In this document: positions 1,547 to 22,936 of the stretch, one piece after another | How the letters are laid out: every line of letters begins with the position of its first letter | Numbering within the stretch: the stretch's first letter is position 1 | Assembly: GCA_033182465.1 (NCBI GenBank) | Contig: CP137319.1 | Span: 1,426,001 to 1,490,000, forward strand | Origin: Sanghuangporus weigelae | Lineage: Eukaryota > Basidiomycota > Agaricomycetes > Hymenochaetales > Hymenochaetaceae | Length of the DNA stretch: 64,000 nt | Direction of reading: 5' to 3' | The notes under the pieces: generated by a model | What the model was told of the DNA's origin: nothing | What the model saw: the letters and a program-made list of their open reading frames with translations, nothing else | The model's database searches: none | Position numbers and translations under genes: made by a program

Positions 1547-3551
1547 TTAGATGGCTAGTTCGCGATGTATGGTCCTGCTTGCAAACCACACTTCATCCTC
1601 TTCCGCGGTATGCGTTTGCTCCAGTATGCCGCGGTTTTGTCCATTCGCCAACCATGCCCGCGGCGGAGATTCAAGATCGCCTCCGATACCAAGCTCCACA
1701 TCTTCATCATCGGTTAAGGTAAAGGTGATGTCCTCGGGACCCTGAGCGGGATCCAGAGTTTGGAGCCTAGCTTCTAGCTCGTCCCTAAAGCTGGTTAATG
1801 GCAAAAGCAGGGTCGAAATGACGTCGGGAGTCTCGGGTTCAGGAACAGCGTCACGCTCCTGCTCAAGGTCGAGGAAGTTGGCGAGACCGAGCTCTTCTTC
1901 TTCTTCACTCGGTTTATTGGAAATGTGCGGCGCGATGTTGTTGTTTTCGTGGAGATTGGAGGGAATCCGTGCGATCGTGATGCTCACTTCCTCTTCGTTC
2001 CGCGTATCTGCCTCACTGCACTCCGAATCAGAGAGTCCAGCTTCGAGTTCGTACAACCAGGATGGATTGGGATCGATATCCGGCTGTTGTTGCCCGCCAA
2101 AGGTCTTGCACCAGATGGACATGACCGCTTCCTCAAACTCCGTTTGCGCTTCCTGCCCTTCAATTGGCATACCGTAAATCTCATATTCCTCGTCCGACCC
2201 GATCTCGTCATCAGGATTGTTTGGTACCACAGCAGCGGCAGATGGAGCAACAGCAAATGTTTCTTCCTCGGAATCTTTCGCGTCCGAGTCGGCTAAATCC
2301 AGGCCAGGCTCACTTCCTGCACTTGAGAAATTAGAACAATACGGCTCCGGTTGGACCTGTGGCGTAATGTCTGGAGACTGCTGGAAACGATTCCTGTGAG
2401 CGATTTGGAATCCCTTCAAGGCCGCACGACGGGCCACCAAGGCGTATTGCTCCCTGAAAGATTGTTCTCCAAAGGTGGCAAACCGAACGGACTTCTTTGT
2501 ATTCGCAGCAGTAGTGGCACAGATACTTTTCACATCTTTTGCTTGCAAATAACGTCCGCCTGTACCATCTCGGGCCAGTACATCTTCGGATGCTCCATTT
2601 GAAGGATTTTCTTCGGTTGAAGGTATCAGCAAATACGTCGATTTCATCCGTGCCCTGCTCATCGAAGCATCGAGGGTTATCAAGTCTGGCTCGACCAAGG
2701 ATCCGTTATCTGAACTCGCTTCGGAGCGCAATCTTCCACATTTTCCACATTGCCGGACTACGGACCTAGAGTTCTCCAGTACTGTAGGCTAGATATACGG
2801 AGATTAAGAGAACTGATAGTGGACGGAGTGAATAGCCGGAGCTCACCTGGGATGATAGTCGGCGTTTTGATACTACTTTACGGTATTTCTTGTGTACGCT
2901 TAGGATGCCTATCAAGAAACCGAGGAACACTATCGAGAATGACATGATTGTTGGGTCTAACGGAATGACCTCGTCCAAGGCCGTCGGGACAGCGTAGAGC
3001 GTTTTGAGAGGCAAACCGGCCGCAGCAATGGGCAATCCTAGATGTATTTTCCAGAAGTCTTGTCCAGGCGATTGTTGCGCGAACCGTATCAATCGAGAAA
3101 AACCAAGAACGCAAAGACCTTCAAACAATAATTGAGGCGAGGCAAGTAGCCAGAGTGTCGTCAACGAGATCGCATTGGAAAGGAATTGACCGAAAACCGA
3201 GTATGACGGCAGGACAGCCTGAACAAGTTCCGCGGCAACAGAACTGAGAACGAGGATGACCACGAGCCTCGTATCCAGGCCCTCGTTTGAACGGGCTGGG
3301 ACCTGAAGCAAGATGTTTTCTTGGCGTCGAAAACGCAAGATCCAGTTCACAAGTGCATGGGCGATGATGTACTTAGCAAGGAGCAAGATGTCATCCGCGT
3401 GCATTGAACGATTCAGGTGCTGTGTGAGAATGATTGCCGCAGCTGGAAGTAGACGTGGCAAGACCTTTCCAAAGCCAACGATAGTTTCATAAGCTAGGAA
3501 ACCCTTGGCACAATAGAGGCTAGACATATGTTGTCGGAACACTGGGATCAT
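1547..3551 (-). CDS. Unrecognised membrane protein with acidic C-terminal half (probable single gene)
   Basis: Two open stretches on the minus strand, 3551 to about 2846 and about 2770 to 1547, probably form one gene. The N-terminal half has about five hydrophobic segments, for example around GKVLPRLLPAAAIILTQ, LVVILVLSSVAAELVQAVL and MSFSIVFLGFLIGIL, so it should be membrane-embedded. The C-terminal half is hydrophilic and very acidic, with runs such as SEEEEELG and DDEIGSDEEYEIYG. The join is the weak point. A consensus donor (CAG/gtgagc) ends the first part, and the phase-compatible acceptor is a GAG/AAC site about 72 nt on rather than the nearer ctacag. An upstream 5' exon is possible, because ttttcag precedes the ATG. 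I do not recognise the family. It ends convergently with the App1 gene. It could also be two genes. Confidence 0.55.
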
Positions 3552-4656
3552 TTTGCTGAAAATACTGCCAGGAAGCGGTCAGCCTTGGTAGTAGTTCTTG
3601 ATCGCTCAAATTTGCCACCGTGACTCTCGTTTGTGACGATCACCGGATCACCGGACTCGCAGTATTTCTGTTCCCTAGGGATAACGAGGACTGTAGAGAA
3701 AGAATGCGACTTAGCCTTGATCCGTCGTGTAACGATACCCAGAGGTCGATGTGGTGGAAGGTAATTGTAGACTTGTGTCGAGGTCTGGCGAAGTGGAGAC
3801 TAGACTGGCGGAGTCTGAGATGGTTGTGATGTGATATCGTTTGGTGCACGTGATCGTGTCTGAGGGAGTCGGACCGTATCCCGCTATATACACGGGTTGA
3901 ACTTGAACCAGCATGTTCGTTGTCGGGGCAGAAATCGTAACGATGCTATTCGTTGAGGAGTGCAAACGGACGAACACTATGAATGACTCATGGTCTGCAG
4001 CGCGATGGAAGGGTGGCTTAAAAGAGGATTTTACCCTGTGTGTAATCGTCTCTCCTCCACGTCACTCGGAATGATAACTACGTTAGGCGGGATATGTGCT
4101 TCCACCTTCCTCTCGTTTTAACGTTCCGAAATATCAAGCTATTGCCTGTCCTTTCAGATAGCCCCTTTGTTCTGCAGAGTGGCTTTGGGGTTCAGTTTAC
4201 GGACGACATTCTTCGGAAACATTTTCCTCACTACCTGTGGTTCGCGTCAATAACATGCACTCCCTCAGACGATCGAACCATGTGTCCCCGCCGTTACAAT
4301 GTTAATGTATATTCCCTATTTACGAGATTCTCTGATGTATCTTGTTGATTTTCAATATCTCCATGGAGATTTTTTGTTGGCCAGTCAGATCCTCGCTTGT
4401 GGCCCATTCTTCTCGATACGAATTGCAAAGATGAGATGACTTCTCATTTTGAGAGTCGTAACAAGTTCTCTGTCTCCGTTCCGCTATATCCCTGTAAATC
4501 GGGAAGGCGACGAAACTGCGCTGGCAGTTTTACTGTGTAAGCACTGACGTGATTTGATTACAAGTTTACTGACACGTCGTTGCCTCAAGGAGCCCGTGCG
4601 CTATACCTGTCTCCGATGAACGAATAATCTCAGTTCTCGGTCCTCTTTGAAAGAGG
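3552..4656. other. Intergenic, nothing assigned
   Basis: Only short open frames without family resemblance are seen on either strand. The stretch carries one CACGTG hexamer (3847-3852) and no tRNA-like or repeat structure that I could recognise. Confidence 0.5.
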
Positions 4657-17559: not shown

Positions 17560-18972
17560 TTATCCTGCAGTTCTGGCCGTCGCAGCCAAAATCATTGCTT
17601 CAGCATTTTCCTCTCGCAACAGATCTTTGACCCCACACTCGGGATCTTGCTCGAGAGTCCATTCATAAGCATCTGCAAGAATTGTATCCGTAACCGGAAC
17701 GAAGTAAGTAGCTAATACTCGCAGGATGTTGGACACCCGTGCAATAGCAAGTCGAGTCGCATAATCGATTTCCTATAATTTGCGGCAGTTGAGATACGAA
17801 GCAGTATCTATCAAATGAATCTCAGGCCCACATCGTTTCTGCTGGAGTACACCGCCTCAGCGTTGAAACCTTCTTCCCCCTCGCGTTCCCTCTCTGTGAC
17901 ATGCTTGCTTACCCACACATAACCATTGAGACCAAGAATCAAGTCCACGCCGCACGGTAAGGAGATAAAGTGGCTTTTCAAGCGGCGGATGAGTTTCGGA
18001 GGAACAGCAATGAGCTGGCCGTTACGAAGCTGCATTCGGAAGCTCATCAGTCGCTTTTCGTCAACATGTCATCTGTGATGTACCTTGCCGTACTTTAGAG
18101 ATCGAGTATGTAACGACATGGCCCCATCAGCGAAAAAAGCTTGGACTTCTGCGACAAGGAGATCCCCTTCCTCAAAGAAGTTCCGCATCTGGAGCTCATC
18201 GCTTTCGAGTTTCCGACGCTATCCCATGACATACCAAACGATACCAAAAGGGAAATGTTATACATTTTTGCAGCCTACTGCGAAGGGACCGGAAGATTAC
18301 CTGAATACCTCCTGGCAAATTGACAGAGGAGAGCATCAAAACCGCGTCTTGCCGTGCATTCGCATCAACCTTCCAACGCCGAGCAGCTACCTAGGTTTGA
18401 AATCCGCATGTAAAATTGAAAACTATAAGCCCTCTCTAAGTATGTAGGAGATGCGATGTGGCAGACCTCAGTTATTCTTCCAACGACAAGATCTCCGACT
18501 TCCGGATTATATCTGTTTGTTTGGACAGCGGAGAAGGTTTCAGTCAAGCGAGTCAGGACCATTGCGAAGTCAATAGGAACGATCGAGTCATCCCGTATGG
18601 TTAGTTTAGTTACGGGAGAAACAATCTTTCACCTGCCTCGAACGAAGTGCCCGAACAGTCACGAGCTTGTTGACACGCTCTATTGTTCCTGTAACAGATG
18701 CTATGACTTCATCTCCGTCAACATAGGTTCCGTGACCACTGAAAGGAGAAGAAGTTGTCTTGTGCGCATATCCCCTCGAATGCGTGGACATACCGCATAA
18801 ATGCATGTGAAGACGTTAATGGAACACCTGGAGATGTGAGCCTCGCGTCCAAGCTATCTTCATCATCGAATTCATCCATAAGAACATCCTCTTCCACGTC
18901 CGGATGATGACACGTCCGTTCGTAAGTATCATTATCTCTGGATTCAGCAGGAAAGGAGGTTATTGTGATCAT
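17560..18972 (-). CDS. RRP4: Exosome complex subunit Rrp4
   Basis: Minus-strand gene, ATG 18972-18970 ([12 protein letters not shown]), stop 17560-17562. Exons read in order: an acidic N-terminus ([16 protein letters not shown]), then [20 protein letters not shown], the exosome N-terminal domain. [17 protein letters not shown] and [16 protein letters not shown] follow, the S1-like RNA-binding domain. Then [16 protein letters not shown] and LKYGKLRNGQLI, and a KH-like C-terminus containing [17 protein letters not shown]. Rrp4 is one of three cap proteins that sit on the RNase PH ring and guide RNA into the 3'-5' exosome, used in rRNA, snoRNA and tRNA turnover. Length is as expected and no break was seen. 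A CACGTG at 19043-19048 lies in its promoter. The giant inverted repeat starts only about 280 bp upstream of the ATG. Confidence 0.92.
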
Positions 18973-19251
18973 GTTCCTGATGCAGATAGTGAACAAAAAG
19001 ATGGGGGACAACTGATTCCATTGAAATTTCGATAACAGTAGTCACGTGTTTTCGCACTTTGTTTTTTTGTACCAAAAAACAAACATACTGTAGCCTGTGT
19101 AGGTCATTCATTATCACCTCATTTTCTGCTTAAGCGAGTAAATCCACGGCGACTCCAAATTTTTTTTATGTGTGCAATAAATCGCATGAGATAAGAGCAC
19201 TAGTGGTCCGTTCCATGTCCATTCCTGTTGTCTTCCTTTGGAGAAGTTGGA
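18973..19251. promoter_or_regulatory. Rrp4 upstream region, bounded by the palindrome
   Basis: AT-rich 5' flank with a T7 run near 19063 and a CACGTG at 19043-19048. No gene. The inverted repeat limits the native promoter to this length unless the element now contributes to it. Confidence 0.4.
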
Positions 19252-20335
19252 GTTACAGCAAAGCAATGAGAATCACGTGATTTCACCACTTTTCTCGCCA
19301 TGAGAGCCTCAAAACACAGATAAAATCATATCTCACCCAAATCTCAACGGTTTCACATCATCTAAGTTGCTAAATTCATATTTTCGAAAGGGCTTTCGCT
19401 TAAAGAAAACTGTAGAGAAAATAGAGCGAAAAATGACCCTAAAATGGCGAAAATATCGGTTTTTGCCTCTTCCTTGCATGTGCAATTTTTTCTGTGATCC
19501 CTGCTGGTCCAGCACCTCCCCAAAGCTATCCAGAATGATAATATGATTATAAAATGAATTTACAGACTGAGTTTGAGTTGAATTGTGTACCAGAATGTGC
19601 TGCTTTGAGGCATGCCTGAATCACTCAAAACTCATCATTTCCCCCTAGCCTCCCAGGCTCTAGGAAAAATTCTTACAGGCCAGATTCATGCATGTAAATT
19701 CATTTTGGATATAATAGACTAGGTTTGTGTACTAGCTAAGGCCTCAGCATCCACTGGTGAGCTGGGCTGAACAAGTGATTCTGGTTGTATGCATCATTTT
19801 AGACAGCATCTTCCCAGCTCACCAGTGGATGCTGAGGCCTTAGCTAGTACACAAACCTAGTCTATTATATCCAAAATGAATTTACATGCATGAATCTGGC
19901 CTGTAAGAATTTTTCCTAGAGCCCGGGAGGCTAGGGGGAAATGATGAGTTTTGAGTGATTCAGGCATGCCTCAAAGCAGCACATTCTGGTACACAATTCA
20001 ACTCAAACTCAGTCTGTAAATTCATTTTATAATCATATTATCATTCTGGATAGCTTCGGGGAGGTGCTGGACCAGCAGGGATCACAGAAAAAATTGCACA
20101 TGCAAGGAAGAGGCAAAAACCGATATTTTCGCCATTTTAGGGTCATTTTTCGCTCTATTTTCTCTACAGTTTTCTTTAAGCGAAAGCCCTTTCGAAAATA
20201 TGAATTTAGCAACTTAGATGATGTGAAACCGTTGAGATTTGGGTGAGATATGATTTTATCTGTGTTTTGAGGCTCTCATGGCGAGAAAAGTGGTGAAATC
20301 ACGTGATTCTCATTACTTTTGCAAACGGCTGTAAC
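19252..20335. repeat. Giant inverted repeat (fold-back), 502-bp arms around a 46-nt loop
   Basis: The left arm 19265-19766 is the reverse complement of the right arm 19813-20314. I see two mismatches (near 19525/20059 and near 19653) and no net indel, so the arms are over 99% identical. The unique loop is 19767-19812. Outside the arms both ends carry GTTACAG/CTGTAAC (19252-19258 and 20329-20335), separated from the arm by a small indel. Each arm contains the same 60-codon frame (MLDQQGSQKK..), which resembles no family that I know and is likely fortuitous. No transposase is present, and no clear target duplication could be fixed. It may be a fold-back or MITE-type non-autonomous DNA transposon, or a head-to-head duplication. 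Transcribed, it would form a ~500-bp dsRNA hairpin. Confidence 0.95.
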
Positions 20336-22936
20336 GTCCTGGTAGCATTCTCAGCTTTCAAGTTCGTCCGAAACTCCGAGTCGTTGGACAAGTAGTTAGT
20401 AAGACGCGACAACGAAAGATACTTTCTTGCCAAAGTGACTATTATTACACCGTGTCATATGCCTGCTACTCATTCCACGTATAGCAGTCATGCCATATTG
20501 CTAAGCTGCAAGTGTTTTCTCGCGCTCACGAAACTTCTCCATTATCAGCGACAGTGTCGCTGCGCTGATTGCAGCTCGATCGTCGCCTGTCATCGCGACG
20601 ATCAAGACCAGTCAAATATTCGTTTACGTCGGATGTGTTTCATTCTATGTTGGACACGCATTAAGTAGTCCCAAATATGTAGCCCACTGCCGAAAACATA
20701 CAAGCCGAATATAAATGGATATTCTGGTACGTCGCCCGTATTTTTTTTTTCTTGAGCGGGGAAGTGCTTTCTCAGAACTGCACGCCAGCGAACAGGAGCG
20801 ATAATAGATAGTAACATTGATATGTCGCTCCACTTTTCGGTATGAAATGTGATATGATCTGTTGACGAATGATCCGACGTCAAACGAAGTGGAAAACACG
20901 CGGACTACGAGCTTCATGCTCAGGTATGTAATGGAAGGCTCCCATTCTGTCTTCATCTCCATTTGGAGGTCGACAGCTTAAGCGCAGTTCGTAAACTCGA
21001 GATCAAGGTGACGATTATGTTTCAAGGATCGATTCATATGCTTGAAGCCACTTCTCACGACGCTGGAAAGTGCGCGAATTTGAACGGAGATTGTCCAGAA
21101 TTCTCTCTGTATCGTGCCGATTTCGATGACAATGGTCTCAAGTCTACCCGAGTCAGTGTTTCATGTCAGATTGCAATGACTATGCACTCCCACCAGCCTG
21201 TACGCCACATGTGTGAGCTCTCGGAGCGGGAATAAGGTGCACAGAGATGACAATTCACTTTGTACCTTTTCGCCCGTTACGTATCAGGTCCGGATCAAAT
21301 TTCTTAGCCTCGAAACTGGTAACTATATTTGCCTGCAGGCCGCCGCGAACGGCTACAGAGGATTCAGTACTACTTAAGTACAATTCAAAAAAGGAGAATC
21401 GAAGGCCGGGAAATTTGACGGATCACAGCCCGAACCTTTCCGGAGGTTCCGAAGCCTTGAAAATTATTTTTGTATAATGATGGTGCTTGTGGCTTCTTTT
21501 CTTCTTGTCGATCCGATATCACTGTACATATCCAACAGCCCTATCTTGTTGCTCACACCGTACTTTTTGCTCTTCGTCCCTCTTTTCATTTGCCATTTCC
21601 TTGCTCGTCTCTCCTTTGCCTTTAGGGAAGCCTACTCGTTATTAAATAATGGCGGACACTTTCTTGTATCATGCGAGGAAAAAATCCGGTCCTTTGATCT
21701 GCCTACATTGACGGATATCCTGTCAGGTCAGGAGACCAACAACTCAAATCGGCCATTGGTACTTGCAAAAGACGCCCTATCGCTGTTGCCCTGCTTCAGC
21801 TGTCAGCGTCTGCAATTGTCTGCCCTTGTTGCAGTGCTTCGCAGGAACTCTCGTGATTGCGGAAGCAGACAACTGGTCCATATTCCGGGTTAGCCCATGT
21901 CCATCTTTAGATAACGGGACTACTTTTTTGTCACTGGCTGGTCAAACCGCTAGTACGCCTTAACTTACATAACTAAATCCCTGTTTACGTTGTCACTGCG
22001 CGGCAGGAATAGAGGTTACTGACATGATCGTGCCTTGATGGAGGAGCAGTATATCAGGTACGGATGATGAAGAAAGTCACTACGCTCTATCCCCACTACA
22101 TGTCCAACGAAGCCATGACACGTCTTCCTGATCGGCCTTCCTAGCGGGAAGCTTCTTTGCTCACTAAACCTGATGCGCGCTATCAAAACCTTCGTACTGT
22201 CCCCGAACTGTGTTGTTGATGGACCACAGAGCACTTCACACACACTACGTCTTGACCGGCTAGGCAGGGAAGAAAACGAGCACCAATGACAGAGTCGATT
22301 TTGCTGTTATTTGTTACAATTCGTCCGGCTTCAATGTAGAGGCAAGATCGGACAGGTTAATCTAAGTAGATTATTCGAGATAGGAGTATGTAATTACAAT
22401 TATATAACATAATAATTCAGACAACAAGTAAACAGTGATGTGAATAACAATACGGAATCTATGCAGACATGCAATCGGAACGTGAGCGGCGATAATAAGT
22501 TAATTATTCCGATGTCCAAGCAAGAATAATGTTGTGCGAGGGTATTAGATAAAAGAATCAGAGAGCGCGTTATTTGAGATACAGTTTGGAAGCGAAAACG
22601 CAGAAGTTGTATCCATGGAAATGAATGATGATAGCGATAAATGTGATGCGACGAGATGCAAGATGCGGGATGTGGAAAAACTGCAAGATGGGCCGGATCT
22701 TTAGAATGATGAACCTCTGCTTATCATCAAGACAGAATAATATGTATTGTACTTACGGAGCATGTGAGACAAGCCCCTCCCCTCCATGTGCAATAATTTT
22801 TGTTTTGCATAGAAATTCTGTTTCTGACCTGACCAAACCCCAAGCTCGAGTCAGAAGGTTATTGCGAACTCAAGACTGCACCCGACGTTCACAACCGATT
22901 TGGCCGAGGCGGCAGGCACTGCTTCTGATCTTCTTG
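20336..22936. other. Gene-poor stretch, nothing assigned
   Basis: Short frames occur on both strands, the longest at 21477-21893 (138 codons, hydrophobic start, Cys in its second half). None shows a recognisable domain or a convincing intron-linked neighbour. Poly-A/T runs and scattered stops suggest decayed or non-coding DNA. Confidence 0.5.

Follow-up and report, generated by a model that had tools for sequence, protein, structure and literature searches.

In a stretch of 64,000 nucleotides of the Sanghuangporus weigelae genome (contig CP137319.1, positions 1,426,001 to 1,490,000), hereafter referred to as the window, a nearly perfect palindrome of about 1.08 kb raises the question of what kind of DNA it represents and why its two arms are so similar. 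A preliminary description of the window had considered a fold-back or MITE-type DNA element, an inverted-repeat locus that feeds siRNAs, and an assembly artefact. Positions without a prefix refer to the window; all others are given as contig and position.

Structure and ends of the palindrome

The left arm (19260–19766, forward strand) and the right arm (19813–20319, reverse strand) were located by an inverted-repeat search; they comprise 507 nt each, are 99% complementary and lie 46 nt apart. This is the same palindrome for which arms of 502 bp (19265–19766 and 19813–20314) had been given before, now found to reach 5 bases further at the outer ends, and the separation of 46 nt noted at that time was recovered as a spacer at 19767–19812 (forward strand). 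The spacer gives the palindrome its direction and was recognisable in all 40 two-ended copies described below; within the 56 nt that surround the spacer, these copies showed 0–1 mismatches in one orientation and 29–31 in the opposite one. The predicted RNA fold is one single hairpin (−971.6 kcal/mol, calculated without a shuffled control). Inside the palindrome no open reading frame of at least 150 amino acids was found, in agreement with the earlier remark that no transposase is visible in this copy.

The ends of the element were set by comparison with other copies, which placed CAGC at 19256 and GCTG at 20331, with a TA outside of each. The left TA, the target-site dinucleotide, occupies 19254–19255 (within TTACAGC at 19253), and the right TA 20332–20333 (within GCTGTAA at 20328–20334). 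By analogy with the CAGC...GCTG limits of a nested element discussed below, the palindromic element in the window most probably spans 19256–20331 (1076 bp, forward strand) and belongs to the end type designated T1. Its right terminus, including TTA (20307–20334, reverse strand), shares 28 identical nucleotides with L091, a terminus from the group of large, transposase-bearing T1 elements. Its left terminus (19256–19274, forward strand) reads TTACAGCAAAGCAATGAG as compared to TTACAGCCGTTTGCAAAAGTAATGAG and, measured against other T1 ends, lacks 8 nt; the symmetric arms end before the termini of the element because these 8 nt are absent from the left end. The same deletion occurs in the copy L029 (C5:463907), and no rare variants linking the two copies were detected in the 40-copy arm alignment.

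The palindrome is located 280 bp upstream of a start codon (ATG at 18972, reverse strand; counted from 19253), as had been described before. Judged from its peptides, the corresponding gene is probably RRP4.

A dispersed family of palindromic elements

A search of the window's own genome, which had been proposed as a check, revealed copies in at least 42 places, including the window copy, on all 13 contigs of the assembly (33,870,148 bases). Most of these copies have unrelated flanks; the exceptions were L039, a tandem array, and a small number of stretches in common. The 42 places were obtained by collapsing 88 genome matches by hand and represent a lower bound, with 40 of 217 first-look candidates scored. 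In comparison to the window copy, the other copies showed 95–99% identity in the better orientation and 92–97% in the other.

When the 42 places were compared, the copies were found to end with either TTACAGCCGTTTGCAAAAGTAATGAG (type T1) or TTACAGCTAGTTGCAAAATTGTTGGC (type T2); damaged or interrupted ends occurred at L020 and L032, and the arm alignment therefore comprised the 40 remaining copies. Nearly the entire length of about 1 kb is palindromic in at least 40 copies with two ends, and the length from TA to TA was 1088 bp in 25 of 41 rows of the end comparison. The terminus motif TTACAGCNNNTTGCAAAA, with at most one mismatch, gave 394 matches in the genome (198 + 196), in comparison to 1 + 2 for the reversed control. 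Among the 100 termini listed of these 394, all of which were free of mismatches, 27 pairs at a distance of 1.07–1.10 kb were counted by hand. If the remaining termini behave like those listed, the genome would contain about 100 complete small copies. The family resembles MITEs in being multicopy, in its inverted termini and homogeneous length, and in the lack of a long open reading frame; with 1.08 kb it exceeds their size, since MITEs are usually shorter than about 600–800 bp.

Several loci showed particular arrangements. L039 (C4:2612497–2615979) is a small tandem array, in which three palindromic copies follow each other at intervals of about 1.2 kb and have flanking stretches in common. 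At L083 (C3:3041000–3047800), an insert of about 386 bp (3535–3920) splits the palindrome, and the coordinates of the element overlap by 9 bp (145–153); the insert is probably a different transposon, which duplicated 9 bp of its target. At L037 (C13:1456491–1458938) and L044 (C6:25717–28160), an end piece of 154–155 bp from a T2-ended element lies directly before a full element with one T1-like end, a layout that would fit a nested insertion at TTAA and a later recombination between the right arms. An end pair 14.7 kb apart (C12:1240571–1255314) was considered as an autonomous element and rejected, as it proved to be a palindrome interrupted by Ty3- and Ty1-type retrotransposons, whose open reading frames were recognised by eye. 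Short exact TTACAGC...GCTGTAA footprints were not found in the 86 fetched loci, and the sole near-match in the window was the left end of the element itself.

Large T1-ended elements and their transposase

L091 (C1:1586100–1588600) begins with the T1 terminus, is identical to the palindrome over 28 nt and then diverges. The palindrome and the large T1 elements are alike over these 28 bp only, whereas the remaining parts of their inverted repeats differ, which counts against the explanation preferred below. A search with the L091 end detected large elements whose inverted repeats reach about 1.43 kb. Pairing by hand of 19 left and 18 right ends yielded 17 pairs and left C5:28365, C9:188908 and C2:2714808 unpaired; the pairs with distances of 49.0 kb and 24.8 kb are probably composites.

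The genome-wide search for helper families comprised DDE_3 (PF13358) and KDZ (PF18758) transposases. For DDE_3, 134 pieces were obtained and merged to 79 loci. A DDE_3 locus was present in 15 of the 17 large T1-ended elements, in comparison to 0.53 on average and at most 4 in 2000 random sets of 17 intervals. The two elements without such a locus (C1:1586185–1594245 and C8:11095–20090) are presumably defective. The former is the source of L091, so that the terminus shared with DDE_3-bearing Tc1/IS630 elements was traced via the end of an element that itself lacks DDE_3. KDZ was rejected as a helper: three pieces were found in the genome and none of them inside the 17 large elements.

In L093 (from C11:24771–37026), DDE_3 was matched with E-values of 6.2e-14 and 3.3e-9. 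The transposase core of this T1 element showed 58% identity over 125 amino acids to a protein of S. vaninii, with one gap of 16 residues that is probably due to an intron. In the relatives P0012 and P0013, the second D is separated from the E by 34 residues, as counted by eye, and relatives of the putative helper thus show the DD34E spacing; L093 and L088, a T3-ended locus, would likewise read D-34-E if the intron is removed as guessed. A sequence search of the PDB with the 125-aa core retrieved no transposase.

The element C11:24771–37026 also contains an AT-hook protein with a weakly SAM-like C-terminus (L092, C11:28200–30500). Its relatives are P0003 of S. baumii (88%) and at least seven proteins of Schizopora paradoxa (37–46%). 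L091 carries another open reading frame with two relatives, both from Sanghuangporus. Pfam scans of these accessory reading frames (L091 and the C11 element) gave nothing above the cut-off.

A second transposase family and a possible exchange of ends

The T2 end of the palindromes resembles the ends of a further group of elements, designated T3 (29 nt, one mismatch). T3-ended elements also encode DDE_3 transposases (L088, matches of 1.3e-9 and 3e-8). They are 12–18 kb long, and their DDE_3 core lies inside inverted repeats of 2.1–2.7 kb and hence occurs twice per element. All four paired T3 elements contain two oppositely oriented DDE_3 loci; in three of them these are nearly equidistant from the ends (e.g. 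1731 and 1730 bases at C12:44772–60748), and in the fourth the distances are 4730 and 1746 bases.

The element C12:44772–60748, whose left 2.7 kb are contained in L088, was the only T3 element seen in which the arms match at about 100% for 2.7 kb or more. In other T3 elements (e.g. C2:3225395 and C1:3791088), one arm matches only up to position 2092, which according to our own reading of L088 is about ten residues past the catalytic E. The open frames of the last DDE_3 piece in opposite arms comprise 44 versus 83 amino acids. Together with the end of arm homology at position 2092, this indicates that the core is doubled and that one of the two transposase copies is probably cut short in several T3 elements. 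Inverted pairs are the rule in this genome, because 19 of 27 cases of adjacent DDE_3 loci within 25 kb show the order +− (−+ 4, ++ 4). More inverted pairs about 5 kb apart (C10:102491–107935, C2:2903301–2908848 and C2:2702775–2707981) are perhaps other families of the same layout.

The T1 and T2 ends of the small palindromes thus match the ends of two different transposase-bearing families. At the same time the bodies are similar: elements differed on average by 4.1% between T1 and T2, by 2.2% among T1 and by 4.9% among T2 (loop columns included), and 7 of the 40 two-ended copies possess one end of each type. Most simply, one gene-free body would have been served by two transposase families, with recombination between copies; judged from these sequences, the palindromic body appears to be able to use two helpers.

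Target site

In all 41 rows of the end comparison TA borders both ends, which is partly by construction, as the rows were chosen by the TACAGC.. end (at most 3 mismatches in 25). This comparison left out L009, L020, L029 and L032, counted L037 and L044 twice and included L085 in addition; L081 and L084 were also offered and gave no row. Directly outside the TA, 77 of the 82 ends have a T, four a C and one a G, and no marked preference was observed beyond this base. The outer T may belong to the element, since 77 of 82 exceeds a usual target preference.

The decisive evidence for the group was obtained from a nested insertion on contig 12, where a T3-ended element interrupts a T1 palindrome at its right end. 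Its left junction has the sequence CTCAT-TA-CAGCTAATTGC (L088 position 4273, corresponding to C12:44772), and the predicted right junction, GCTG-TA-CTTTTGCAAACGGCTGTA, has a single match in the genome, 16 kb away at C12:60743. The unbroken T1 end reads CTCAT-TA-CTTTTG and contains a single TA; consequently the TA was duplicated in the nest and the T3 element spans from CAGC to GCTG. The TA target-site duplication typical of Tc1/mariner elements was therefore found at both junctions of a large T3-ended relative. For the small palindromes, the corresponding evidence consists of the TA at the flanks and one junction at L035, where a T2 end lies within a T1 end.

In 41 of 43 rows no direct repeats above 8 bp were detected in the 40-bp flanks, and target duplications of 8–11 bp, as known from Foldback- and Mutator-like elements, are thus not a feature of the family. 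Repeats of at least 8 bp occurred in three rows and of at least 9 bp in two of these (shuffles about 1.0 and 0.2, respectively). The two exceptions are the repeats near the ends of L015 (10 bp) and L085 (9 bp), which count against the explanation preferred below because a mechanism using only TA leaves them unexplained.

Homogenisation of the arms

For the 21 copies that carry T1 at either end, arm divergence was 0.34% within a copy and 1.43% between copies, and the minimum of 300 random pairings was 1.21%. Among these copies, 31 private variants were shared by the two arms of a copy, and 27 were restricted to one arm. When compared to all 80 arms, 17 variants, distributed over 11 of the 21 copies, occurred in the two arms of a single copy and were absent from the remaining 78 arms, and 16 were confined to one arm; about 0.03 both-arm variants would be expected from independent identical hits. 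The arms of the T1/T1 group have therefore been made alike copy by copy. The window copy itself has two arm differences and no private variant on both arms (columns counted).

Values for the other groups were less distinct, with 3.66% within and 4.49% between the 12 T2/T2 copies (random pairings down to 3.54%) and 2.47% within and 3.13% between the 7 mixed-end copies (down to 2.10%). This argues against a steady conversion, or for old copies being mosaics. The preliminary description had proposed that the palindrome is young or kept alike by gene conversion; both apply to the T1-ended group, and for the T2-ended copies homogenisation is not clear. It could be argued that arms are alike merely due to the youth of the copies, without any conversion, as 24 young copies deviate by a mean of only 0.7% from their own consensus and the older T2 copies lack clear homogenisation. 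Youth as the only cause is nevertheless unlikely, because T1 arms are about four times more alike within a copy than across copies and because private variants recur on both arms of one copy.

Classification and alternative explanations

The same terminus on DDE_3-bearing elements, the TA duplication and the dispersed copies identify the palindrome, with high probability, as a non-autonomous Tc1/mariner (IS630) element, which would be mobilised by the transposase of the large T1 elements through cut-and-paste at TA and whose arms are homogenised. The terminal inverted repeats fill nearly the whole element and thereby produce one palindrome with a loop of 46 nt. The transposase of the large elements of about 12 kb would recognise the common 28-bp terminus, excise the palindrome and insert it at TA, i.e. 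act in trans. After or during the repair linked to transposition, the arms may then be equalised by gene conversion from arm to arm or by template switching. A more far-reaching proposal is a Tc1/mariner lineage that lives as palindromes: the arms would be recopied in every young copy, arm-borne transposase cores (two per T3 element) would be repaired from their twin, and gene-free palindromes would shift between two helpers via alternative ends. We regard this as a tentative and rather doubtful extension.

Concerning the classes considered at the outset, the assignment to a DNA element is supported by the copies, the common termini and the TA nest, whereas a Foldback or Mutator type is contradicted by DDE_3 and TA. 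Elements of that type have long inverted repeats and 8–11-bp target duplications, and the palindromic form as well as the repeats of 9–10 bp at L085 and L015 would fit; as nearly all flanks lack such repeats and the common ends lead to DDE_3 transposases, it is very improbable that the family belongs there. Even less can be said for a local duplication in inverted orientation or an artefact of assembly, as the perfection of the palindrome is the only argument in favour. The 42 places with mostly unrelated flanks exclude an artefact in practice and leave a negligible probability for a local duplication; furthermore, according to the parts of the genome report considered here, the S. weigelae assembly is based on HiFi reads with short-read polishing (PMC10803629). 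Such polishing might, in theory, smooth out differences between arms.

A role as hairpin siRNA source is compatible with a transposon. A transcript would fold into a duplex of 500 bp and be diced, and the products would silence the family and perhaps the nearby gene. The stability of the predicted fold and the position of the copy upstream of the putative RRP4 are in accordance with this, and the genome contains 34 matches to the Argonaute-like PF02171 and 7 to RNase III (PF00636), which are a precondition only. However, no Rfam match was obtained for 18000–22000 of the window at the gathering threshold, and the spread and ends of the family are explained without such a role, which we therefore consider rather unlikely. 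Argonaute pieces at C8:256739, C5:2744322, C9:1460395 and C13:1519847 each scored 39.8 bits and share the same two stops, with neighbouring pieces at 57.5–58.6 bits, a pattern that would fit a dispersed repeat carrying an Argonaute gene.

Comparison with known systems and implications

The Tc1/mariner family proposed here shares the DDE_3 transposase of its large members with the same ends, the D-34-E spacing in relatives and the TA duplication with the DD34E type of Tc1/mariner (IS630) elements of Basidiomycota. Usual Tc1/mariner elements are 1–3 kb long with shorter repeats, whereas the large elements described here are mostly 8–17 kb, have inverted repeats of 1.4–2.7 kb and further open reading frames, and their small members are almost wholly palindromic. 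Closest in kind among the systems considered is the relation of mimp and impala in Fusarium oxysporum: as far as the consulted parts of that report describe them, mimps are non-autonomous, have terminal repeats like those of the element encoding the Tc1/mariner transposase, use TA as target and comprise 200–220 bp with repeats of about 27 bp around a non-coding centre (PMC3599309). The present palindrome differs in its 1.08 kb, its arms of about 500 bp with a 46-nt loop, and its two end types with two helper families. Galileo (PMC3688188) and the Mutator/Foldback element Tm1 (PMC3169594) share the very long inverted repeats and the foldback form; in the sections considered they are P-element and Mutator-type, respectively, unlike the combination of DDE_3 and TA found here. 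Arms kept alike by conversion are also described for palindromes of sex chromosomes in the parts consulted (PMC7023750), which are large chromosomal structures and not dispersed mobile elements of 1 kb.

In the portions of the genome report considered, bulk repeat counts are given for S. weigelae (1215 MITEs, 45 TcMar and 74 TcMar-Ant1), and the palindrome family is not described beside them (PMC10803629). Other fungal DNA transposons are treated in PMC12730594, where the word "mariner" is absent from the main text. Within the literature on Sanghuangporus and mariner elements that was accessible in part, no such family was named, which is not proof of its absence in print.

The family represents an established type of mobile DNA, the form of which is unusually palindromic here. 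For annotation, an odd palindrome and bulk counts of MITEs are replaced by a defined family with candidate helpers. It is furthermore a candidate source of double-stranded RNA, and Argonaute-like pieces are numerous in the same genome. Although long perfect palindromes are generally regarded as unstable, nearly 400 such ends are present here, together with at least 40 palindromic copies of about 1 kb and large relatives whose arms of 2 kb contain a transposase core. These constitute a natural series of copies of differing age, in which conversion from arm to arm, the decay of palindromes and the switching of helpers are measurable.
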